Program-made: the position numbers and the translations under genes
From: a virus
DNA length: 29,272 bases
IMG/VR virus record: IMGVR_UViG_3300044608_000166
Coordinates: 1-29,272 of that record
Reading direction: 5' to 3' (one strand)
Shown: one piece after another, positions 3,975 to 22,468 of the stretch
How positions within the stretch are numbered: the stretch's first letter is position 1
Layout: each line of letters starts with the position of its first letter
Notes under the pieces: generated by a model
What the model saw: only the letters and a program-made list of their open reading frames with translations
What the model was told of the DNA's origin: nothing
The model's database searches: none

Positions 3975-4640
3975 ATGGCATACAGCCGTGGTTCAAGTAG
4001 TAACATTATCGTGGGTGCAGCAGCACTTTTTACACATAATGCAGGTCCACTAGGATTGGTATCATCTGGCGCTAATGCAGGAAAGATTACTGATGCTCAA
4101 GCAGCAACAGACCTTCCAGATTTAGCAGCAAGTGCAACATCCTACAAGGATGCATTGACATCAGACAATGCGTTCACAAATATCGGTTACACATCAAATG
4201 GTTTGGAACTAGCGTTCGAACCAGATTTTGGTGAGGTAGCAGTAGATCAACTTCTCGACGTTGCTCGTTTGTTCAAGCAAGGTATGACAGTTAATTTAAA
4301 TACATCTTTTGCAGAGGCAACACTAGAAAATCTTCTAGTAGCAATTGCAGCAGATACAGACGATCTAGATGATTCAACCGCAGGTCTTGTAGACATGAGA
4401 ATGTCTGCAGGAGATATCGGTGACGTTCCACTAGAGCGTGGAATCGTAGCAGTAGGACCAGGTTCTGGTTCTGCACTAGATCCAAAGGAAAGAATCTATG
4501 TTGCATACCGTGCACTTTCAATCGAGAGCGTAACAGTATCAGCAAAGCGTGACGAGGCTTCAATGTTTGAAGTTTCATTCCGTCTTCTTCCAAACGATGA
4601 CGCATCATACGGTAAGATCGTAGATCGTTCACTCGTATAA
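3975..4640 (+). CDS. Major tail (tube) protein
   Basis: The 221-residue product is the subunit of the long non-contractile tail tube. It starts MAYSRGSSSN and has the composition of tube proteins: small residues, acidic, beta-rich. Characteristic blocks are NIGYTSNGLELAFEPDFGEV, a helix DQLLDVARLFKQG followed by a strand and the helix TLENLLVAIA, and a C-terminal strand set ending FEVSFRLLPNDDA. The start at 3975 is preferred over 3957 because a good ribosome site precedes it. The gene has its own promoter and is closed by a strong terminator, as expected for a very abundant protein. Arg codons are mostly CGT, as in the capsid gene. It lies between connector genes and tail chaperones, the standard position. 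Confidence 0.85.
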   Translation: MAYSRGSSSNIIVGAAALFTHNAGPLGLVSSGANAGKITDAQAATDLPDLAASATSYKDALTSDNAFTNIGYTSNGLELAFEPDFGEVAVDQLLDVARLFKQGMTVNLNTSFAEATLENLLVAIAADTDDLDDSTAGLVDMRMSAGDIGDVPLERGIVAVGPGSGSALDPKERIYVAYRALSIESVTVSAKRDEASMFEVSFRLLPNDDASYGKIVDRSLV

Positions 4641-4657
4641 TATAACTTAATAGGACT

Positions 4658-4686
4658 AGCCCAGACCCTTGAAAGTCTGGGCTTTT
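4658..4686 (+). terminator. Strong intrinsic terminator after the major tail gene
   Basis: A perfect 9-bp stem, AGCCCAGAC (4658-4666) with GTCTGGGCT (4675-4683), has an 8-base loop and runs into TTTT at 4683-4686. It lies 17 nt after the major tail stop codon and is the clearest terminator in the window. Confidence 0.88.
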
Positions 4687-4697
4687 CCATTTCCATT

Positions 4698-4706
4698 TGG
4701 TATACT
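4698..4706 (+). promoter_or_regulatory. Extended -10 promoter (TGG-TATACT) for a leaderless message
   Basis: TATACT at 4701-4706 has TG one base upstream. Exactly six bases separate it from the ATG at 4713, so the predicted start of transcription is the A of the start codon. No Shine-Dalgarno is present upstream. A second TATAAT (4709-4714) overlaps the ATG but would place the start inside the gene. Confidence 0.65.
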
Positions 4707-4712
4707 TGTATA

Positions 4713-5393
4713 ATGGCAACTAGCATATACCCAAAAAGAAAGTTTTATTTTGTAGACAGGACAGAGATTAATGCTGGGCCCCTTAAAATAAAGTACCTTA
4801 GAGATTTTCTAGAAACCTTTGAGCCAATCAAAGAAGCAAAAACAGACAATGAATCAATCTCTATTTTAGTTGACTGTGCTTTAATAGCAATGAAGCAGTA
4901 TGCCCCACATATTAAAACGGTAGAAGACCTTGAAGATAATTTAGACCTTCCAACAATTTATGAGGTTTTAGATATAGCAGCAGGAATTAAAATTAATCAA
5001 AAATCAGAAGAGCCAGTAAAATCTCAAGCAGTAGAAAGTGGCTCATCATGGGAGACCCTAGATTTAGCAAAACTGGAGTCAGAGGTTTTTGTTCTTGGAA
5101 TATGGAAAGATTATGAAGAACTAGAAGAGTCTTTATCTATGGCAGAACTAAGTGCAACACTTGAAATAAAAAGAGAACTAGAATATAATGATAAAAAGTT
5201 TTTTGCTGCAATGAAGGGTATTGATTTAGATAAGCAGTCAAAGAAGAGCAATGAATGGGAAGACATGAAAGCCAGGGTGTTTAGCAAAGGCAAGGCAACA
5301 GATGGAAGCGACATTATGGCTCTGCAGGGCAAGAATGCAGAAAGGGCTGGGTTTGGAATTGGAATGGGCCTCACTTACGAGGTTTACGAATAG
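4713..5393 (+). CDS. Tail assembly chaperone, long (GT-like) form
   Basis: This 226-residue protein has two parts. Residues about 15-95 match the separate short chaperone at 5449 (shared P-L-K-I, D-N-E, D-C, I-A, K-Q-Y, N-L-D-L-P-T; about 35 identities in 82 positions by eye). Residues about 110-226 are an extra domain with VFVLGIWKDYEELEESLSM, a Glu/Lys-rich helix and KKFFAAMKGIDLDKQ, resembling the T extension of siphophage GT chaperones. Such proteins coat the tape measure protein during tube assembly and are not in the virion. Here G and T parts are encoded in one continuous frame, so no frameshift is needed. There is no ribosome site; the ATG lies at the predicted transcription start, after the terminator. 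High confidence in the family, moderate in the G/GT reading. Confidence 0.8.
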   Translation: MATSIYPKRKFYFVDRTEINAGPLKIKYLRDFLETFEPIKEAKTDNESISILVDCALIAMKQYAPHIKTVEDLEDNLDLPTIYEVLDIAAGIKINQKSEEPVKSQAVESGSSWETLDLAKLESEVFVLGIWKDYEELEESLSMAELSATLEIKRELEYNDKKFFAAMKGIDLDKQSKKSNEWEDMKARVFSKGKATDGSDIMALQGKNAERAGFGIGMGLTYEVYE

Positions 5394-5414
5394 CCAAAAA
5401 ATAAGCCTGTGCTA

Positions 5415-5423
5415 TGGTATAAT
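5415..5423 (+). promoter_or_regulatory. Extended -10 promoter (TGG-TATAAT) for short chaperone and tape measure
   Basis: TGGTATAAT is a perfect extended -10 with no -35 box. The predicted start is near 5430, with a leader of about 19 nt. The leader opens with the 10-bp palindrome CCTTATAAGG (5432-5441), which overlaps the Shine-Dalgarno AAGGAGG (5438-5444); this could be an operator or chance. Confidence 0.65.
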
Positions 5424-5448
5424 TAACTAAACCTTATAAGGAGGATAA

Positions 5449-5772
5449 ATGTCTACAAAAGTTGAAGACAAAGAAGAACTACATCTTATCGATGGAACAA
5501 AGTTTGAAGTAAGACCACTAAAGATCTCATTGCTAAAGCCATTTATGCAGAAGTTTAATGAGTTACAGGAAGTGGCAGAAGATAACGAAAAATCAATGAA
5601 CGTTCTGCTAGATTGCGTACAGATTGCATTCAAGCAGTATCTACCACTAGTGGCAGACAACAGAGAGGCGATTGAGGAAAATCTAGATCTTCCTACAGTC
5701 TATAAGATTATTGATGCAGCGTCAGGTATGAAACTGGCAGATGCAACAGGTCTTTTAAACTCAATCAAATAA
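5449..5772 (+). CDS. Tail assembly chaperone, short (G-like) form
   Basis: The 107-residue product is a paralogue of the N-terminal half of the gene at 4713 (see there). It lacks the T-like extension and ends shortly after the block NLDLPTVYKIIDAASGMKL. It lies directly before the tape measure gene, the normal position of the G chaperone. It has its own promoter and an excellent ribosome site (AAGGAGG, four bases before the ATG), which fits the usual excess of G over GT. Near its 3' end, TTTAAAC at 5754-5760 is in the phase X-XXY-YYZ for a -1 frameshift, but the shifted frame stops after 12 codons at 5798. Confidence 0.8.
   Translation: MSTKVEDKEELHLIDGTKFEVRPLKISLLKPFMQKFNELQEVAEDNEKSMNVLLDCVQIAFKQYLPLVADNREAIEENLDLPTVYKIIDAASGMKLADATGLLNSIK
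5754..5760 (+). other. In-phase -1 slippery heptamer T-TTA-AAC at the end of the short chaperone
   Basis: The zero-frame codons are CTT-TTA-AAC (5752-5760), so the heptamer TTTAAAC is correctly phased for tandem slippage. After a -1 shift the frame reads 12 codons and stops at TGA 5796-5798, overlapping the tape measure start. In related siphophages the G-to-GT frameshift lies at this place. Whether it is used here is unknown; A+T-rich DNA makes chance occurrence possible. Confidence 0.5.
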
Positions 5773-5790: not shown

Positions 5791-8700
5791 GTGGCTGATG
5801 TAAACTCCAATATTGGTATTAATTTTGATACCACAGCAGCCCTTGCATCTCTTCGTAAACTCCAGGCTGGATTAAGCACATTTAATCAATCCCTAACTCA
5901 GGGTAACGTTGCAGCAATGAATGCCCAAAAGGGCCTTAATTCTCAACTGATTCAAGCAATCAATGCAACTGGAAAGTTTGTTGCAAGTCAAAAAGAAATA
6001 GCAACAAGCACAGGATCTTTTACTCAGGCTCTTGAAAAAAATCAACTGTCAATGCGACAGTACTTTAGGTACACCGCAGCAGCAGCGACGGCAAACACAA
6101 AAACCTTTAAAGGTATGTTTGCACAAGAGCGTGAGATTATTAACCGTGCTCGTAAAGATAGAGTAAAACTTCTTCAGTCTCAATACATTCAACTAGGTAA
6201 TGCCAATGGCGACCTTGTCAAGGTTTTGCAGGTAGTTCCAAAGCATCTACAAATGGCTAATGGTAAGTATGCCGACTATACAACAAGAGTGCAGATGGCT
6301 GCCCAGCGTCAACAGTTCTTAAACCAGTTATTAAAACAAGGATCAACAAACCTCCTAAACTTTGGTAAGAACACTCAGTGGGCAGGACGTCAGTTGATGG
6401 TTGGTTTGACAATCCCACTTTCTATTCTTGGATCTGCAGCAGCAAAGACATTTATGGAAATGGAAGAGGCAGTCCTTAAGTTTACAAGAGTTTACGGAGA
6501 CATAACTACTTCTGGAGATGCAACTAACAAAGCCGTTGCTGACATACAAAGACTAGGTAAAGAATTTACAAAATACGGCATTGCTGTAAAGGACACAATG
6601 GAAATGGCTGCAACAGCAGCAGCGATGGGTATGCAGGGAAGTGCTCTAGAAGCCCAAGTAGTCCAGGCGACAAGACTTTCAGTACTTGGTCAAGTAGAGC
6701 AACAGCAAGCACTTGAGACTACTATTTCCTTACAAAATGCTTTTGGTATTTCTTCAGAACAACTTGCACAAAAAATTAACTTTCTTAACGCAGTAGAAAA
6801 CCAGACTGTTCTTTCTATCGAAGATTTAACGATTGCAATTCCAAAGGCTGGGCCAGTTGTAAAGCAACTTGGTGGAGATGTTGAAGATCTAGCATTCTTT
6901 ATGACTGCAATGAAGGAAGGTGGAATCAACGCATCAGAAGGTGCTAACGCACTTAAGTCTGGTCTTGCTTCCATGATTAACCCAGCAAAGAAGACTAGTG
7001 AGTTCCTTGCAGGACTTGGAATTAATATCAAGGGCATTGTAGATAACAATGCTGGAAACTTAAAGGGCACAGTAGTAGGACTTGCTAGAGCATTAGATAC
7101 TCTAGATCCACTTAATCGTGCTCGTGCTATTGAACAACTATTTGGTAAGTTCCAGTTTGCCCGTATGTCAACATTGTTCCAGAACGTTGCAAAAGATGGA
7201 ACTCAAGCATCTAGAGCACTAGATCTTGCTGGAGCATCAATTGAAGAACTAGCAATTTTATCTGAACGAGAATTGGCAAGAGTTGAAAATTCAACAGGGG
7301 CTAAATTCAAAAAAGCCATGGAAAATTTAAAGAATGAATTAGTCCCAGTAGGTAAAGCATTCTTGCAAGCAGTAACCCCAATAGTTGAGTTTGTTGGAAA
7401 AATATTAACAAAGTTTAATGGCCTTAGCGATGGAACTAAGAAGGTCATAACAATTATGATTGGAGTGCTTGGAGCAATAGCCCCAGTTGCACTTATGACA
7501 TTTGGTGTTCTTGTTAACGGTATTGCAAACGTAATTAAGTTCTTCGCAATGCTTCGTGGTGGAATTGCTAAACTCAATGGACAAAACAATGTCTTGGGTG
7601 GAGGGTTTGATTATTTAACTAATCAGCAGACTGAGTTACTTGCAGAAACAAATGCTCTTCACACCTCTCATCAGCAACTTCTATCTACATTCAATGTTGA
7701 AAAAGGAGCAGTCGATGCATTGGCCTTAGCATACGGAAATGCAGCCAGTCAAGCAAGAGCCCTTGCTCAGTCATCACCAGGACTGTTTAACACGGTCCCA
7801 GGGCCAGCAGGAGCCGTAGCAGGGCTACCTCCTAAGAAGTTTGCAGATGGTGGAGTTGTTCCAGGCACAGGAAATAAAGATACAGTCCCAGCACTACTAA
7901 CCCCTGGAGAAGTTGTTCTTACAAAGCAGACTGCAAAAGAAAATCCAGAGTTAGTTGCAGCACTTCAAAACGGATCCGTAATGAAGTACAACGGTGGAAC
8001 TGGTAAGAGACAGACCACAGGACAAGCATCCAAGGGAGCAATGTTTGATGTTGGTGGAAGGCAACTTAGATTAGGTATAAAGCCAGAGTCTGAAGCAAAT
8101 GTTCAAAATGTACAAGCACTTGTTAAAGCCATGGAAACTGGTATAGGCGGAGTTACCAATGGAACAGAAATTGTCGAAGAGGTGTTTGCAAGATTTGCAG
8201 GAGATTCAAAGGTATCACTTACAGACTTCCTTGCTGAGTTAAGAATTGCAACCGAAGAAATGGCTGGCGTAACTTTATCATCTCATGATATTAATAAAGC
8301 AGCAGGCCAACAAGGTGCTAGTAAAAAAATTGCAGGTCACTCAGCATCTGAGGCTGGAGTAGGAACCCTCAGAGAAGAATCTAAGCGTCAAGGTCCAGAA
8401 CAGTTGGCAGAGTTCGAAAGAATGGACAAGATAGTAAATGAAACTGCAGACAAACTAGAAAGAGAAAGACCAGACTTAACAAAAACACAAAGGCAGGTTG
8501 ACAGAGCACACACTGGAGCAGTTGGCGCAACAGCAAAAAGCACTAAAGAGGGATGGTCTCCTGATTTTTATGATCTTGGAACACATAATGAAAATGAATT
8601 ATCTCAAGCACTTGCACCTGGTAAAAACTCAAACAATGAAGCAAGAGAAAAATACTTAGAATTATTAAAATCTTCATCCGCAACTGAAGCAGAAATTGCT

Positions 8701-11700
8701 TCAATAACTAAAAAAATAAATGAAAATGGAGCATTAACTGAGTCAGAACTTCAAATTCAAAAAGGCATTCTTGAACAAATGCTCAGAGATAAAGATTTTA
8801 TGGCTGCAGAGCAAAAGAAAAAAGGCAAGGGTCCGCTTGCTATTGAAAAAACAATGCTTGCCACAGTTTCTGATGCAGAACTTCGTGAAAAATATCCAAG
8901 AATAGCACCAGAAGACACAAGGTCTCCAGAAGAAAGAAGTGCAGCAGGACAGGTTGCACTTACAAAAAGATTTGGTAAAAGAAATCAAGCAGGAGTTGAT
9001 CCAAGCAAAGGCTTTGTTCCATTATCAGATGAAGAAAAAGCAAAAAGAATAGAGTCTATTTCAGGACCAACAGTAAAAGTAACAGAAGAAGATAAGGCAT
9101 CTGCAGCAGCAGAAGGTGCAAAGGTTGGTCAAGCAGCAATTGATGGAGCCGAAGGTCCAGATGGAGTAGACAAGGGCTCTCCTTCTCGAAAAGGTAAAAA
9201 AATTGGTAAAAGCGTTGCAGACGGAATTGTTGATGGAATGCAAGAAGGTCAGCCAGAAGTCAAATCACAGGCCTCACAACTTGGCAACTCAGCAGTTCCA
9301 TCAGCAGCAGAAACACAGTCAAAAGTTTCAAAGATGGATCTTGGCAATAAGGCTTTCTATGATGATATTGATACACCAGAGATGCGTGATGAAAGACAGG
9401 TTCTTAAGTCTTTAGATAGACAAAGAAGAAAGCGTGGTGCTAAGGGTTCTGTAGAACTTCCAGCAGATAAATCATCAGTCAAGTCTAAAGTTAGTTTAGC
9501 AAAGAAAACACAAGTACAAAGTCAAGAGATTGCTAAGGAAACAGGAAATGTAGCAAAATCAACTGTTCTTGTTGCAGAACAAACAGATGAATTTGCCAAT
9601 GTTACTCAGGCTGCGGTAGATGCTCAAACAACAAATACATCCAACCTAATTACCACTAACCAACTAACCGATGCAGCAAATAACAACCTTGGTCAGATGC
9701 TTCCAGCAATGGACAAAGCAGGAGTTGCCCAACAAGATCTTGCAGACTCTTCGGCAAATATTGCAAAGACAAATGATCAAATAGACGCAGAAAAGAAAGA
9801 ACAGTTAGAGCGACTAAAAGCATATAACGCTCAAGAGGCTGCTCGTATGGCAGCAGAAAATGGAATTGTTCCACCAGGAAGTCAGACAGGAAATGAAGAA
9901 CTAGGCAAAAACAGAATGGGATCAGTTGAGGCTTATGAAGAAGCATCCACTTATACCAGAGATAAGAATGGCCAAATCATTTTTGATCCAGAACTTGATG
10001 CAGATGGAAAGAAGCAGCCAACAACTCTTTCAGCAAAACAGGTTAAAGAAAAGAAGCGTGGCATGCGTAGAGAGAAGGTTGGAAGGTTTTCTGGTAAAGC
10101 CTCTGGCGTACTGGGAGCAGCAACTATGGCAGCAGGAATGGCTGGGGCACCACCACAGGTCACAGCAGCACTTGGTGTAGCGTCAACAGCATCTCAGTTT
10201 GCCCCAATGATTGCAGGCCTTACAGGACCGCAGGGTATTGTAGTAGCACTAGCAGCAGTAGCAGCAGGTGCATACTTATTTAACAAGCATCTCAATGCTA
10301 TGGCAGGCAAGGCAGCACAGTTTGCAAAAGACCTATCTGCAACAAGAAGTGGACTTAAAGCAATAGGTGAGGTTTCTGGTAAGGTTGGCTCATCTGAAAT
10401 AATGGATAAGCGTAGATCAAAGAGTCAGTATGGCAAGTATGACGAAGCAGTAAAGATTAATGATATATTTGGAAAGCAATTCTTAGGATCAGATGCTGGC
10501 AAAAAAGAGAAGCAACTATTTCAGCAAAATGTTAAAGACTTCGGCAAAGATAAGGCTATATCTGATCTATCATTAAAACTTTCAACGGCTGTTGCCGACG
10601 GGGTATTAGATAGCGACGCAGCAAACAGCATTGCAGCAGCCATGGCTATAGACCTTAACGATGCAAAAATTGAAATGCAGATAATTGGTCAAATGAACTC
10701 ATTGATTGGCCCAGATGGAGAAGATCTTAAAAAGGATCCAATGAAGACCAGAATTGCAATCATGGCAAAAGCAGGACAAAGAACTAAGGATCTTGAAACT
10801 GATATTGCAGGAAAAACTGGTTTTGGAGAAAGTTCAAGAAAAGAAGTTGCAGCACTTGCAGCACTAAACATGAACAACCTAGAACTAGCAACAATGATGG
10901 CTGATCAGGTGCAAATTGAATACGAAACACAAAAGAAAAAACTTGAAGCAGAGTTGGCAGCAACAACAAATGCACAAAAGAAGTTAGATCTTGAAAAACA
11001 AATTTCGACTCTTAATGCTCAGAATCTAAAAGATTCACAGTTTATGAATGATAACATTGCTGCACAAATAAATAAAAACGCTATAAGTTTTAACAAGGTT
11101 TACAGTGGGTCTGTTTGGGGCAAGCAGGCAATGCGTGAAGACGCATACTTTGATGCATCTAAGGCTCAGGTTGAGTCTACATACAAGGGCACAGATCAAG
11201 AGGGTGCAGCAAAGAGTTTCTTGAATAAAACCAAGGCTCTTGTAACAGACACCACGACTGGAAAATATAACTCAAGCACTGGTCAGTATGTAAAAACTGG
11301 ACTTGGAACTGCAGAAGCAGCACAAAAGTTCCAAGCAAAAATGGAAATGCTTGTAGGAAGCAAGGTATTGAGCCCAGGAGAAGCAACAAGTTACATGGAT
11401 CTTTTCCGTGGCAAGTTAAATGAGATGGACTTCTTATTAAACGCAGGAATTAAAACAAAGGGTGCTGCAAAGACAAAAGAATTGTTTGGAATGTTTGCAG
11501 GCTTTAGTGCTGGAGGAAGAAAGCAAGCAACATCAATCATTACTGAAATGATTATGAAGAAGAAAGATCCAGCAGAGTTTGACTCAATTATGGAAACCCT
11601 AAAGAGTGTTCAGTCAATGGATGGAAATACTCTTGATTTTGAAGTTCTTGTAAAGACAACAGGACTTGAGGGAATTGAATTAATTAAAAAAGAGCAAGAG

Positions 11701-14700
11701 GCTCTTGAAAAAATGAAAGAGGATGCTAAGAAGTCTGGCAAAACATCTTTAACCTCAAAAGATGCTGCTGGAAATGATGTTGTTGATGCCTCTGCCGATG
11801 TCTCTGGAAATATGAAGGCTGCCACAGATGCACTAGAGAAGAACAAAGAAAGAATGGAAGAGTTTAAAAAGGGAAGTCTTGAACAACAAACAGAGTATCT
11901 ACAAAAACTTGCAGCACAGATGATGTATGAGGCCACAGTAAATGATAAAACACGTGAGGCAGACATACAGTTCCTTGCTGAGCAGCAGGCGATGAATGAA
12001 GCATACCTACAAGGTATTGCTATTGGATCTGATGCTTACGTAAAGATTTTAGAAAAAAATGTTGCAGCATTAAAACTTCTTTCAGATAGTGACTTTGCAG
12101 TTAAGAAGGTTGAGATGGTTGGAACAGGTGGAGTCACCAGCCTTGGAGCAGATGTACCAAAGGTAACTACTGATGGTGGTGGCAAGAAGCCTCTATCTTT
12201 CCTTGATGATCTTGCAATGAGAATTAAAAATGTTCGTGACGGAGCATTTGATGCAACAAAGCCATTAGAGTCTATGCTTGCTGCATTTAGTAATCCAAAA
12301 ATAAAGAAAGACATGGACAAGGCGTTTAAGGCATTTGATGGTCTTCAACAAAGAATGATTGACATGAAGATTCCAAAAGAATTTAGAGATATGATCGCAG
12401 GAATGTCTGCTGAAGATTTCAACGACATTGCAAAACTTACAGGCAAGAAGGCTATATTTAAATTTAAAAAGGGTAAGCCAAGAACAAAGGCAAACATCGA
12501 AGGACTAACTGACACTGGTAAGAAGACAATGAAAACCTACAACGAGGCTATCGTTGGAGAAGGTAACGTTGTAAATAGAGAAGCCGTAGAGCAAGTTGCC
12601 AATCAAGAAAAAGCATTTAGAATATTAGTTTCAGAAGGAGCAAGTGCAACAGAAGCACTAGAGCATGTTCAAGACGCAGCACTAGCAGCATCTATTGCTG
12701 CAGGAGCACTTGGTAAAAAGGGAAGTGCAGAAAGAAAACAATACATTGCAGATCTTAAAAAGGCTACAGATGAAACAGAAAGATTTGCTCTTCGTCAAAA
12801 AATGATTCAGGCTAATGAGGAGTTTAAACTTCTTGAGCAAATGCCAAAACTTGGAACAGCAATGAAGATGGCAGGTTTCTCTGCAGATCAAATGCAAGAG
12901 GTACTAAATGATCCCGCACTTGCAAAGTCTTTAATTGAAGACCTCAAAGATGGAAAGGTTGACTCTAAAGAAATAGCAGACTACCTAAACTCTATTGAGG
13001 CTAGAAAGATAATTGATATTCAGGTAAACTATAACTCTGGAAACTATTCTGAGTCTGCTCGACCTGGCATGGAAATTGTAAATGAAATGTTTGCTGTTCA
13101 AGAGCAGATGCTAAGAACTGGGGCAGATCCAAGAACAACTGCCATGGTTGACCAAATGGATAAGAACAATAAGGCAATTAGAGACGCAGAAATGAGTGCT
13201 AAGGGTTTTAGAGACGAGATTGAAGGAATTAATCGCAGCATTGCTAATGATGAACGAGCAATTGAACTAAACTATACAAGACCTATAGAAGACATGCAGG
13301 AGCAGATTAGCGACAAGCAGAGAATCTTGGAGATGGATCCTGAATTTGGTGATCGTGCCATGGAGGAAATTAACAAGGTAAATTCTATTATGTCAAATGA
13401 TTCTGCAATCATGGCTAATCAAGCAGAGAAGATTAATGAAGAATATGATAAGCAGGCAGAGGCTCTTGAAAAGGTTGCACAAATAAATGAAGAAATTACA
13501 AACCAACAAAAGAGCCAACTCGATATTGCAGGTGCTTTAACTAGCGGAGATATCGCAGCAGCAGCAAGAGCAGCACAAGATGCCCGTGCACAGTCGGCAC
13601 AAAGATTTGGAACAGCAACCGCAGATGCTTTGCAACAGTCTAGAGAAAATGAGATCAAGGGTCTTCGTGGAGCCCAGACTGGTTTATCTCAAGAAGAAAT
13701 TGATGATGCACAATTTGCAAATTCTCAAGCACTCTATGAAATGGAAACTGATCCAAGACGAACTCAGATTCTTGAAGATATTAGATTACTAGAAGATGAA
13801 ATTTACAAGAAGGAAGAGTTGCGTGAAGGAGCACTTCTTGCAATTAGGGGCAAGCAAGATGAAATTTATGAAATAGAAAAAAAGAAACTGCAACCACTAG
13901 AAGACCAAATTAAAAGACTTACAGATCAAAACGAACTATTCCAGATGAGAATAGACAAAGAGGTTGAAAACATAACAGTTTTGGATAAGACCAAGTTGCA
14001 GTGGGATAGAATACAAGCCCAGATTGATGCTAATGCTCTTGCAGGTAAGAACCTTGATGGTGTGCTTGGAGGATTGCTTGCTTCAGTAGGTGCGATTGCA
14101 GACAAGTGGCAAACTATTCTTGACAAATTAAAAGAGTATAACTCAACACCAGTTGCTGTTAAAAATGCACAGACAACAGTAGTGAATAACGCTGCAACTG
14201 CAGCAGCAGCAGTCACAGCAGAAAAGTTAGCAGCAAATGTAGTAACTGGAGCAACAACAGATTCAGCAGCGACAGCAGCATCAAATGCTGCAGCAGCAAC
14301 TTATGCAGCAGCAAAGGCTGCTGGAGACTCAGCAGGAGCAGCCCTGGCTGCAGCAAAGGTAATCCCAAGTGTTCTAGCATCAGGAGAAAGCGGTGCAATC
14401 GGTGCAGCATCTATAGCATCACAACTAAAAGCAGCAGAGAAGGCTTTGGCAGCATCCAATGCAATAGCAGCACAAGCAAATGCATTAGCATCTTTTAGAG
14501 CAAAAGAAGCAGCAGATGCAGCAGCATATAAAACAGCAAAGGGTGGTGGGTCAGGATTCTTTGATAGGTTTAAGGCAAAGGGTGGACTAATTGATCCAGT
14601 AAAATTTGCTAAGGGTGGATTTGCAAAGGGTACTGATACAGTGCCAGCAATGCTAACTCCAGGAGAATTTATCATGAGTAAGTATGCTGTAGATCAGTAT

Positions 14701-14886
14701 GGTGTAGACACAATGAGAAAAATTAATAATGGTGATTCTGTTGGTGGGGCAGTGTATAATAATACATATACGTTAACAGTAAATGCCAAGACCGATGCAA
14801 ACCCTAATGAGATTGCACAGGCAGTTATGTCGACAATTAGAAATGTTGAAGGCAGAAGAGTTAGAGGAGTATCATTAAATGACTGA
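5791..14886 (+). CDS. Tape measure protein, very long (3031 residues)
   Basis: It sets tail length and is carried inside the tube, then released during DNA injection. The GTG start at 5791 follows AAGAAGG with normal spacing. Visible regions: residues 205-480, the TP901-type tape measure core (EMEEAVLKFTRVYGDI, AAMGMQGSALEAQVVQATRL, AFFMTAMKEGGINASEGANA); 551-590, a hydrophobic segment; 684-707, the motif FADGGVVPG then DTVPALLTPGE; 1129-1145, GSPSRKGKKIGKSVADG, a motif common in tape measures; 1439-1505, a second hydrophobic segment; 2451-2751, a long coiled-coil region; 2791-2917, Ala-rich helix; 2935-2960, a second GG...DTVPAMLTPGE motif. No lysozyme or peptidase motif is evident. At the usual ~0.15 nm per residue the tail would be about 450 nm. 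The stop overlaps the next gene by 8 nt. Confidence 0.93.
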   Translation: MADVNSNIGINFDTTAALASLRKLQAGLSTFNQSLTQGNVAAMNAQKGLNSQLIQAINATGKFVASQKEIATSTGSFTQALEKNQLSMRQYFRYTAAAATANTKTFKGMFAQEREIINRARKDRVKLLQSQYIQLGNANGDLVKVLQVVPKHLQMANGKYADYTTRVQMAAQRQQFLNQLLKQGSTNLLNFGKNTQWAGRQLMVGLTIPLSILGSAAAKTFMEMEEAVLKFTRVYGDITTSGDATNKAVADIQRLGKEFTKYGIAVKDTMEMAATAAAMGMQGSALEAQVVQATRLSVLGQVEQQQALETTISLQNAFGISSEQLAQKINFLNAVENQTVLSIEDLTIAIPKAGPVVKQLGGDVEDLAFFMTAMKEGGINASEGANALKSGLASMINPAKKTSEFLAGLGINIKGIVDNNAGNLKGTVVGLARALDTLDPLNRARAIEQLFGKFQFARMSTLFQNVAKDGTQASRALDLAGASIEELAILSERELARVENSTGAKFKKAMENLKNELVPVGKAFLQAVTPIVEFVGKILTKFNGLSDGTKKVITIMIGVLGAIAPVALMTFGVLVNGIANVIKFFAMLRGGIAKLNGQNNVLGGGFDYLTNQQTELLAETNALHTSHQQLLSTFNVEKGAVDALALAYGNAASQARALAQSSPGLFNTVPGPAGAVAGLPPKKFADGGVVPGTGNKDTVPALLTPGEVVLTKQTAKENPELVAALQNGSVMKYNGGTGKRQTTGQASKGAMFDVGGRQLRLGIKPESEANVQNVQALVKAMETGIGGVTNGTEIVEEVFARFAGDSKVSLTDFLAELRIATEEMAGVTLSSHDINKAAGQQGASKKIAGHSASEAGVGTLREESKRQGPEQLAEFERMDKIVNETADKLERERPDLTKTQRQVDRAHTGAVGATAKSTKEGWSPDFYDLGTHNENELSQALAPGKNSNNEAREKYLELLKSSSATEAEIASITKKINENGALTESELQIQKGILEQMLRDKDFMAAEQKKKGKGPLAIEKTMLATVSDAELREKYPRIAPEDTRSPEERSAAGQVALTKRFGKRNQAGVDPSKGFVPLSDEEKAKRIESISGPTVKVTEEDKASAAAEGAKVGQAAIDGAEGPDGVDKGSPSRKGKKIGKSVADGIVDGMQEGQPEVKSQASQLGNSAVPSAAETQSKVSKMDLGNKAFYDDIDTPEMRDERQVLKSLDRQRRKRGAKGSVELPADKSSVKSKVSLAKKTQVQSQEIAKETGNVAKSTVLVAEQTDEFANVTQAAVDAQTTNTSNLITTNQLTDAANNNLGQMLPAMDKAGVAQQDLADSSANIAKTNDQIDAEKKEQLERLKAYNAQEAARMAAENGIVPPGSQTGNEELGKNRMGSVEAYEEASTYTRDKNGQIIFDPELDADGKKQPTTLSAKQVKEKKRGMRREKVGRFSGKASGVLGAATMAAGMAGAPPQVTAALGVASTASQFAPMIAGLTGPQGIVVALAAVAAGAYLFNKHLNAMAGKAAQFAKDLSATRSGLKAIGEVSGKVGSSEIMDKRRSKSQYGKYDEAVKINDIFGKQFLGSDAGKKEKQLFQQNVKDFGKDKAISDLSLKLSTAVADGVLDSDAANSIAAAMAIDLNDAKIEMQIIGQMNSLIGPDGEDLKKDPMKTRIAIMAKAGQRTKDLETDIAGKTGFGESSRKEVAALAALNMNNLELATMMADQVQIEYETQKKKLEAELAATTNAQKKLDLEKQISTLNAQNLKDSQFMNDNIAAQINKNAISFNKVYSGSVWGKQAMREDAYFDASKAQVESTYKGTDQEGAAKSFLNKTKALVTDTTTGKYNSSTGQYVKTGLGTAEAAQKFQAKMEMLVGSKVLSPGEATSYMDLFRGKLNEMDFLLNAGIKTKGAAKTKELFGMFAGFSAGGRKQATSIITEMIMKKKDPAEFDSIMETLKSVQSMDGNTLDFEVLVKTTGLEGIELIKKEQEALEKMKEDAKKSGKTSLTSKDAAGNDVVDASADVSGNMKAATDALEKNKERMEEFKKGSLEQQTEYLQKLAAQMMYEATVNDKTREADIQFLAEQQAMNEAYLQGIAIGSDAYVKILEKNVAALKLLSDSDFAVKKVEMVGTGGVTSLGADVPKVTTDGGGKKPLSFLDDLAMRIKNVRDGAFDATKPLESMLAAFSNPKIKKDMDKAFKAFDGLQQRMIDMKIPKEFRDMIAGMSAEDFNDIAKLTGKKAIFKFKKGKPRTKANIEGLTDTGKKTMKTYNEAIVGEGNVVNREAVEQVANQEKAFRILVSEGASATEALEHVQDAALAASIAAGALGKKGSAERKQYIADLKKATDETERFALRQKMIQANEEFKLLEQMPKLGTAMKMAGFSADQMQEVLNDPALAKSLIEDLKDGKVDSKEIADYLNSIEARKIIDIQVNYNSGNYSESARPGMEIVNEMFAVQEQMLRTGADPRTTAMVDQMDKNNKAIRDAEMSAKGFRDEIEGINRSIANDERAIELNYTRPIEDMQEQISDKQRILEMDPEFGDRAMEEINKVNSIMSNDSAIMANQAEKINEEYDKQAEALEKVAQINEEITNQQKSQLDIAGALTSGDIAAAARAAQDARAQSAQRFGTATADALQQSRENEIKGLRGAQTGLSQEEIDDAQFANSQALYEMETDPRRTQILEDIRLLEDEIYKKEELREGALLAIRGKQDEIYEIEKKKLQPLEDQIKRLTDQNELFQMRIDKEVENITVLDKTKLQWDRIQAQIDANALAGKNLDGVLGGLLASVGAIADKWQTILDKLKEYNSTPVAVKNAQTTVVNNAATAAAAVTAEKLAANVVTGATTDSAATAASNAAAATYAAAKAAGDSAGAALAAAKVIPSVLASGESGAIGAASIASQLKAAEKALAASNAIAAQANALASFRAKEAADAAAYKTAKGGGSGFFDRFKAKGGLIDPVKFAKGGFAKGTDTVPAMLTPGEFIMSKYAVDQYGVDTMRKINNGDSVGGAVYNNTYTLTVNAKTDANPNEIAQAVMSTIRNVEGRRVRGVSLND

Positions 14887-21576: not shown

Positions 21577-22014
21577 ATGGCAATTACCCCAGATCCTGGA
21601 ATTAAAAATGTTGTTATTAAAAAGCAGTCACTGGGAAAGGTGACAGGAAATAACAAAACTGTTTTAAGATTTAGAATAGTTGCAGAAGATAAGAACAGAA
21701 AGTCTGCTTATTCTCCAATAGTATTTACTGAATCAGAAAAGGTTGAAGATGGTACTGGAGATTTAAGACAACTGGGAAATACTCTGTTTCTTAGTTGGGA
21801 CCCTGGAAATCTTTCTACACAGATACTATATGATATCTTTGTTGGCTTTGACTCTTCTAGTCCAACATACAGAGCAACAACTGGATCGACTAACTATTCA
21901 TTTTTAAAAACTGGAACAACCTCAGTGAGGGCTGTTGTTCAAGTATCTTCAATAAATCCAACATTAAATACATCGTTAACTATTTATGATTCTGGAACTG
22001 AGAGTCTGGTATAA
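21577..22014 (+). CDS. Small fibronectin-like minor tail protein
   Basis: A 145-residue beta-rich protein starting two bases after the previous stop, with no clear ribosome site, so probably coupled. Strand pattern VLRFRIVAEDKNRKSAYSPI, LFLSWDPG, LYDIFVGFDSSSPTYRATTG and VRAVVQVSS looks like a single fibronectin type III-like or similar immunoglobulin-fold domain. Such domains decorate phage tails and may aid weak attachment to cell surfaces. Its stop codon overlaps the -10 element of the next promoter. Confidence 0.55.
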   Translation: MAITPDPGIKNVVIKKQSLGKVTGNNKTVLRFRIVAEDKNRKSAYSPIVFTESEKVEDGTGDLRQLGNTLFLSWDPGNLSTQILYDIFVGFDSSSPTYRATTGSTNYSFLKTGTTSVRAVVQVSSINPTLNTSLTIYDSGTESLV

Positions 22015-22015
22015 T
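22007..22015 (+). promoter_or_regulatory. Extended -10 promoter (TGG-TATAAT) for a leaderless message
   Basis: Perfect TGGTATAAT; exactly six bases separate it from ATG 22022, so transcription should begin at the A of the start codon. No Shine-Dalgarno lies in front of that ATG. The element overlaps the stop codon of the upstream gene. No -35 box is seen. Confidence 0.65.
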
Positions 22016-22021
22016 TATATT

Positions 22022-22468
22022 ATGGCAATTTTACCCGTACCAGAACGAGGACAGCCCTTAGACGTAACCTACATCTATCAGATTGTTAAGGCTGTTAATG
22101 ATCTATCAACTCAGGCTTCTACATCTGTCAATAAGTATGTCACGGTTGACACACCAAATGCAGGCAAGCAGAGCGTTAAGACTTCAGAGGCAAGAGTTAT
22201 TGGTGGCTATGTTAGAGTCACAAATGGTGAAAGCCAGACTGCTGGCTCATCTCGTACATTTTCTTATTCTTTTCCAACTGAGTTTAAGTTTGTTCCAATT
22301 GTAACAGCAACCCCTGTAAGTATTGGAACTTCCTCTGACGCTGGAAAAGATGTTGTAGTTACTCTTTCTAGCGTAACCACTTCAAGCATAGAGGGATCAA
22401 TCAAGTTTAATATTGGCGGAATAACAAGTGTTGGCATTAACCTTATTGCAATAGGTATCCCCAACTGA
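22022..22468 (+). CDS. Small tail fibre / receptor-binding-like protein
   Basis: I place the start at 22022 (MAILPVPERGQ, 148 residues) rather than the in-frame ATG at 21986, because the former sits at the predicted transcription start and the latter lies deep inside the upstream gene. Residues 1-40 include a short helix (YIYQIVKAVNDLSTQ) that could form a trimer stalk. Residues about 75-148 are beta-rich (FSYSFPTEFKFVPIVTATPV, VVVTLSSVTTSSIEGSIKFN, VGINLIAIGIPN), resembling the H-type lectin-like heads of some tail fibres. It is the last clear tail gene. The receptor-binding role is inference. Confidence 0.6.
   Translation: MAILPVPERGQPLDVTYIYQIVKAVNDLSTQASTSVNKYVTVDTPNAGKQSVKTSEARVIGGYVRVTNGESQTAGSSRTFSYSFPTEFKFVPIVTATPVSIGTSSDAGKDVVVTLSSVTTSSIEGSIKFNIGGITSVGINLIAIGIPN

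Follow-up and report, generated by a model that had tools for sequence, protein, structure and literature searches.

A tandem two-gene tail assembly chaperone locus, probably descended from a frameshifted ancestor, in relatives of Stanwilliamsviridae phages

The sequence analyzed here (hereafter the window, i.e., the whole stretch of 29,272 nucleotides) corresponds to positions 1 to 29,272 of the IMG/VR record IMGVR_UViG_3300044608_000166 and has a G+C content of 39%. The tail module on this 29,272-base record comprises a major tail protein gene, a long gene, a short gene, and a tape measure gene, all of which lie on the + strand together with the signals between them. The major tail protein gene (3975 to 4640) belongs to an open reading frame that runs from 3957, with its likely start at ATG 3975 after AGAGGTGA; its product matches PHROG 2175, shows weak matches to major-tail-protein PHROGs, and is 44% identical to the products of the genes at the corresponding position in Sham, Beuffert, and Gilson, annotated as major tail protein in Sham and Beuffert. 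A terminator-like hairpin (4658 to 4683) separates this gene from the long gene (4713 to 5393, 226 aa), which holds a G domain (4713 to 4997), a fusion linker (4998 to 5087), and a T domain (5088 to 5390) in a single frame. The short gene (5449 to 5772, 107 aa) encodes a G domain alone, and directly 3' of it lies the tape measure protein gene (5791 to 14886, 3031 aa), in the place of the annotated tape measure genes of relatives; by the usual rule of thumb, a tape measure protein of 3031 aa would go with a very long tail. Both open reading frames on which the original prediction was built are thus present, between the major tail protein and tape measure genes, and their assignment draws on the list of open reading frames, PHROG matches, alignments, and a survey of related loci. 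A short and a longer product sharing an N-terminal domain are known here from the genes alone.

The domain shared by the two proteins, in which about 35 identities in 82 positions had earlier been counted by eye, is real, with 39 of 96 positions identical (41%, E 2e-25) and a Smith-Waterman score of 207 (no more than 61 in any of 2000 shuffles). PHROG 10504 is matched by the first 101 residues of the long protein (2.9e-20) and by 100 residues of the short protein (5.3e-20), and PHROG 10474 by residues 130 to 218 of the long protein (7.5e-19), both families being without a named function in PHROGs. By tblastn, 130 phage records match the long protein and 128 the short one, and in both sets 127 are from Streptomyces phages; many of the 60 records listed (of 130) are annotated as tail assembly chaperone and others as hypothetical. 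Searches with the chaperone proteins gave no match above the cut-offs in Pfam, and a sequence profile search of the PDB returned nothing better than E 0.5.

Structure models were built for both proteins. That of the long protein, based on 44 sequences (the alignment holds 43 of the 45 relatives picked), has moderate confidence (pLDDT 68, pTM 0.53), and Foldseek found no match to it in the PDB at E ≤ 0.001. Its match in BFVD is a 215-aa viral protein without a name (5e-14), followed by weak matches to GT of phage N15 (E 0.016, probability 0.80), a Kitkat chaperone (E 0.023, probability 0.99), and the frameshift chaperone of EfaCPT1 (E 0.076, probability 0.80); its named structural neighbors are mostly chaperones. 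The model of the short protein (pLDDT 78), for which 38 of 40 picked short genes and 15 of 25 picked frameshift G genes were aligned, matches an annotated tail assembly chaperone (7.6e-7); the HK97 chaperone 2ob9 came second in the PDB re-alignment (87 residues aligned, rmsd 5.9) at Z 4.1, a score too low to carry weight by itself and tied with unrelated entries, and predicted viral chaperones match the models better than 2ob9 does.

Relatives that still encode G and T in two frames give the long gene its context. The Stanwilliamsviridae records examined all have a G open reading frame followed by a T open reading frame in the −1 frame, between the major tail protein and tape measure genes; a joined CDS is annotated in Sham and in Rhodococcus phage NiceHouse, and the slippery heptamer in Sham and Gilson is CCCAAAT within Asp-Pro-Asn codons. 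The C-terminal half of the long protein, whose kinship with T domains was one point on which the original prediction could have failed, is a homologue of this −1-frame T. After a −1 slip Gilson would read ...SSSGGSGGSWEELNLAQLEAEAFLLG, and the fused gene of the window reads ...ESGSSWETLDLAKLESEVFVLG, which indicates that the fusion continues in the frame reached by frameshifting; the linker (...SGSSWETLDLAKLESE) is likewise similar to what frameshifting relatives encode in the −1 frame (Gilson ...GSWEELNLAQLEAE). Among the matches listed, which come from Streptomyces Stanwilliamsviridae and several uncultured groups, T lies in the −1 frame at 75 of 75 distinct frameshift loci, 71 of which have a canonical heptamer. 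The four loci without one (L246 to L249) are from Boydwoodruffvirinae, with T in the −1 frame and CCCGGAA where others have CCCAAAY. Ten sister phages from IMG/VR (L356 to L358, L361, L362, L364, L365, L368, L375, and L376) carry CCCAAAT, CCCAAAC, or GGGAAAC in each case; they resemble the phages with the fused gene in being their nearest kin in a six-gene tree described below (from which L364 is absent) and in having the same type of T, but differ in that G and T are still in two frames.

To compare the locus across relatives, we combined seven IMG/VR scans, one genome-contig scan, phage records, and the window into a sample of 440 loci, taking the best 80 hits per scan and classing the loci by G and T profiles built for this analysis. 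As the 440 include the window, its sub-loci, and several loci per contig, counts of distinct DNA are also given. A fused G and T followed by a separate G was found at no fewer than 296 loci (at least 175 distinct in DNA, window included), and G and T in two frames at no fewer than 131 (at least 75 distinct). Of the remaining 13, eight are fused genes with no short gene, on contigs that stop either inside T or no more than about 120 nt beyond it; another four are truncated on the opposite side, and the last is that of Rhodococcus phage Trina, in which a weak G match occurs twice in one open reading frame and T follows in another frame. Among the matches listed, a short gene accompanied every fused gene whose contig extended far enough downstream, and a separate second G was absent from all two-frame loci, Trina being ambiguous. 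The scan of bacterial and archaeal genomes yielded one locus among the matches listed, of the frameshift type. This locus (L359, CAINGU010000031.1), with a long next open reading frame, sits on a contig binned as an uncultured cyanobacterium that is perhaps a phage contig.

These comparisons bear on whether the long gene could instead encode a different tail protein that happens to contain a G-like domain, leaving the short gene as the only chaperone. Its G domain is the more diverged of the two, with a median identity among representatives of 51% compared to 60% for the short G and 70% for T in the same 26 phages, and may no longer act as G. Yet the whole length of the long protein, linker included, matches the two-frame product of relatives, the long gene is accompanied by the short gene wherever the contig allows among the matches listed, and the named neighbors of its predicted structure are chaperones for the most part, making this alternative quite improbable.

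In the window, no slippery heptamer joins G to a −1-frame T: the long gene reads into T without a change of frame, and no T follows the short gene. Nor is the short gene joined to a T domain in any sampled relative, as the original prediction had required: its stop lies 10 to 29 nt from the next long open reading frame at the 162 measurable loci, which leaves no room for a remnant of T. A hidden frameshift might nonetheless set the ratio of the two products, either by ending the long gene early or by extending the short one. The heptamer TTTAAAC, known to be slippery elsewhere, does occur at 5754 to 5760 near the end of the window's short gene, and heptamers of any kind precede T in 24 of 175 long genes among the matches listed (one of them GGGAAAC), or in 41 of 137 if the stretch is widened to reach the first codons of T. 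However, after a −1 shift the window's short gene would run for 12 further residues to a stop codon, yielding no T, and the short spacing to the next gene holds throughout. Moreover, heptamers are not conserved in either gene: TTTAAAY is found in 26 of 170 complete short genes, window included (five of the 175 ran off the contig), 144 of the 170 have no heptamer near the end, and 151 of 175 long genes have none before T, again among the matches listed, and the kinds differ where heptamers are present. Residual frameshifting was rejected for both genes on this ground, and we regard a hidden frameshift that sets the ratio as extremely improbable.

Start signals differ between the two genes in the way first proposed, i.e., leaderless-type for the long gene and an own promoter with a strong ribosome site for the short gene, and conservation in relatives backs this reading of the sequence. 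Upstream of the long gene, the final T of the extended −10 element TGGTATACT (4698 to 4706) is 7 nt from the A of ATG 4713; the element lies downstream of the hairpin at 4658 to 4683, and may serve as a leaderless promoter. TATAAT at 4709 to 4714 was rejected as the −10 box of the long gene, as it overlaps the start codon and would start transcription within the gene; TGGTATACT was preferred because it fits the start and is kept in most relatives. The short gene (ATG 5449) is preceded by the extended −10 element TGGTATAAT (5415 to 5423), putatively its own promoter, and by the Shine-Dalgarno site AAGGAGG (5438 to 5444). A consensus scan requiring a −35 box lists neither promoter, and its totals for the window were near chance (7 promoters compared to 5.5 in shuffles, and 2 terminators compared to 1.8). 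It lists no terminator between the long and short genes, so the short gene should also be read from the long-gene promoter. Within the long gene, a promoter-like site at 5161 to 5189 (TTGAAA-17-TATAAT, 11 of 12 promoter matches) was rejected as a conserved promoter, since 174 long genes were examined and only 11 match it.

Each of these signals was followed through the relatives. In 129 of 129 distinct relatives, the 60 nt ahead of the long gene hold a hairpin with a folding energy of −10 kcal/mol or lower, and a hairpin precedes G at 56 of 57 frameshift loci; the terminator therefore looks ancestral. Among the matches listed and at a threshold of −5 kcal/mol or stronger (with one of 175 long-gene and one of 75 frameshift starts unscored), a Shine-Dalgarno site is present in just two of 174 long genes and missing from 172, compared to 174 of 175 short genes (median −12.1 kcal/mol) and 73 of 74 frameshift G genes (median −11.6 kcal/mol). 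Values for G in the ten sister frameshift phages range from −4.5 to −11.4 kcal/mol, six of them from −4.5 to −6.8, suggesting that a strong site is no fixed ancestral trait. The motif TANNNT ends exactly 7 nt before the long-gene ATG in 84 of 119 distinct upstream regions among the matches listed (mean 6.0 and maximum 11 in 200 shuffles of the last 30 nt) and 5 to 9 nt before it in 105 of 119, accompanied by the TG of an extended −10 in 99 of 119. The other 14 upstream regions each have, by eye, a TGNTANANT-like box slightly further up. Among the matches listed, TANNNT at −7 occurs in none of the short-gene or frameshift starts examined, and TGNTATAAT precedes the start codon in 136 of 139 distinct cases for short genes and in 46 of 54 for frameshift loci. 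Judged by these signals, the short gene shares its kind of promoter, its ribosome site, and its place before the tape measure gene with the frameshift G genes, and the start of the long gene differs. Elsewhere in the window (22007 to 22022), TGGTATAAT recurs with its last T 7 nt before ATG 22022 (a gene that extends to 22468) and no ribosome site visible by eye; with this second leaderless-type start, leaderless initiation may be usual for this phage.

Trees of the two domains were built for 51 phages (26 fused, 25 frameshift) that remained after thinning at 80% T identity, from which NiceHouse (by domain-length filters) and Trina (by its odd class) were left out. The G tree of these 51 representatives (77 rows, 104 columns; bootstrap unsettled) places all long G domains in one clade (100/98) and all short G domains in another (100/97). 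In the T tree, most sister frameshift T domains fall inside the fused group, but the data do not reject a tree that keeps all fused T together (p-AU 0.494). A further tree from six genes (the major tail protein, four upstream genes, and the start of the tape measure gene; 1343 columns), computed by a quick method without bootstrap, holds 47 of the 51 phages, too little sequence being available for L075, L076, and L080 (fused) and L364 (frameshift). All 23 fused phages present in it form one clade (SH-aLRT 100), and frameshifting phages lie outside that clade on every side of any root placed among them, so that a single switch, maintained ever since, is the most parsimonious history. Purifying selection acts on both genes, with a median dN/dS of 0.12 for the long and 0.11 for the short gene (first 401 pairs met per gene), and the long and short G domains of one genome are 38% identical.

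The original prediction had read the order, long before short, as duplication followed by loss of T; the short copy does look like an ancestral G minus T, but the best G tree splits long from short, joining the short G to the sister frameshift G (L356 to L376) with support of 98/81 and leaving the long G outside. Such a topology would be expected if the long gene had been acquired sideways from a phage with a fused GT while the resident frameshifted gene lost its T, with no duplication within the lineage, and median identities to the sister frameshift G (41% for the long G, 56% for the short G) lean in the same direction. However, all 23 fused phages form one clade, so no outside donor is seen; long, short, and sister G domains stand together against the other frameshift G domains (100/98); and the fused-gene T groups with the sister frameshift T (99/95). 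Faster evolution of the long copy would yield the same tree, and forcing the long and short G together costs 3.7 log units and is not rejected (p-AU 0.434). Sideways acquisition is thus unlikely, though less so than the alternatives above. From its Shine-Dalgarno site and its place before the tape measure gene, the short gene looks like the ancestral G minus slippery site and T, and the long gene looks like a moved, faster-diverging copy.

We hold, with considerable confidence, to a two-gene tail assembly chaperone locus that probably arose from a frameshifted ancestor via duplication and in which the start signals would keep G-T low and G high. The ancestor would have made G and G-T from one gene by a −1 frameshift at CCCAAAY or GGGAAAC near the end of G, as is proposed because relatives show the −1 frame and the heptamer. 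The trees and the anatomy of the locus suggest a single duplication, of G alone or of G and T as a unit, in the clade's ancestor; the upstream copy would then have been fused in frame to T, and the copy beside the tape measure gene would have lost the slippery site and T. Transcripts of the long gene probably start at its own ATG and lack a ribosome-binding site, and would give few G-T molecules, while the short gene, with its own promoter, a strong Shine-Dalgarno site, and probable read-through from the first promoter, would give abundant G. By analogy with lambda, G may coat the tape measure protein, and the scarcer G-T may bring in the major tail protein via T. We infer that the GT:G ratio is set by initiation, since the differences in signals predict more G than GT, as in lambda. 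Somewhat more tentatively, though still on the favorable side of even, we propose that control of the G:GT ratio has moved from elongation to initiation, that the two G domains have specialized, and that leaderless translation sets the dose of the minor chaperone.

Low-level frameshifting between G and GT is described as widely conserved among long-tailed phages, except T4, with low-level −1 slippage in lambda giving a G:GT ratio of 30:1, G binding the tape measure and T binding the tail protein (PMC5009743). The lambda system is alike in its two products with a common N-terminal domain and in the division of labor to be expected from them, and differs in that its ratio comes from slippage, compared to two genes here. 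Closer by descent are the Stanwilliamsviridae (Sham, Gilson, Beuffert, Karimac, Paradiddles, and Coruscant) and Trinavirus (NiceHouse), which share the G and T domains, their place, and the hairpin and promoter before G, but have a single G open reading frame with a Shine-Dalgarno site, T in the −1 frame, and no second G. For some Gordonia phages, no chaperone locus is reported to have been found (PMC12859696). The passage on T4-like phages in the PRFect paper, citing Vladimirov et al. 2022 (Virology 566:9), states that in some of them one chaperone gene is short and the other a longer fusion (PMC10885494). The same Vladimirov paper is cited in a passage elsewhere for slippery sites in T4-like chaperone genes (PMC12846349), so the T4-like picture appears mixed. 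As far as these passages describe them, the T4-like two-gene chaperones resemble the present pair in having a separate short and a longer fused gene that make a frameshift unnecessary, a likeness of working rather than of belonging to the same group. In T4, the pair of Vladimirov, Gautam, and Davidson (2022) is reportedly genes 26 and 51; we find gp26 and gp51 to be 20% identical (E 2e-6), with divergently transcribed genes, whereas the pair described here is tandem and its switch from frameshifting can be traced.

Within the passages of open-licence literature searched, such a gene pair is described only for T4-like phages; the kind is thus already known, and the locus in these relatives of Stanwilliamsviridae is a separate, tandem case of it. 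What it adds to the T4-like example is another lineage, a traceable switch, and a split between leaderless and Shine-Dalgarno starts. Because the branch on which frameshifting was lost can be identified, with phages that still frameshift lying outside it, it becomes possible to ask what slippage is for, i.e., the ratio alone or also a common G domain in both products. The two genes also leave two G domains free to diverge, and the locus may be a natural example of a low dose set by leaderless initiation.
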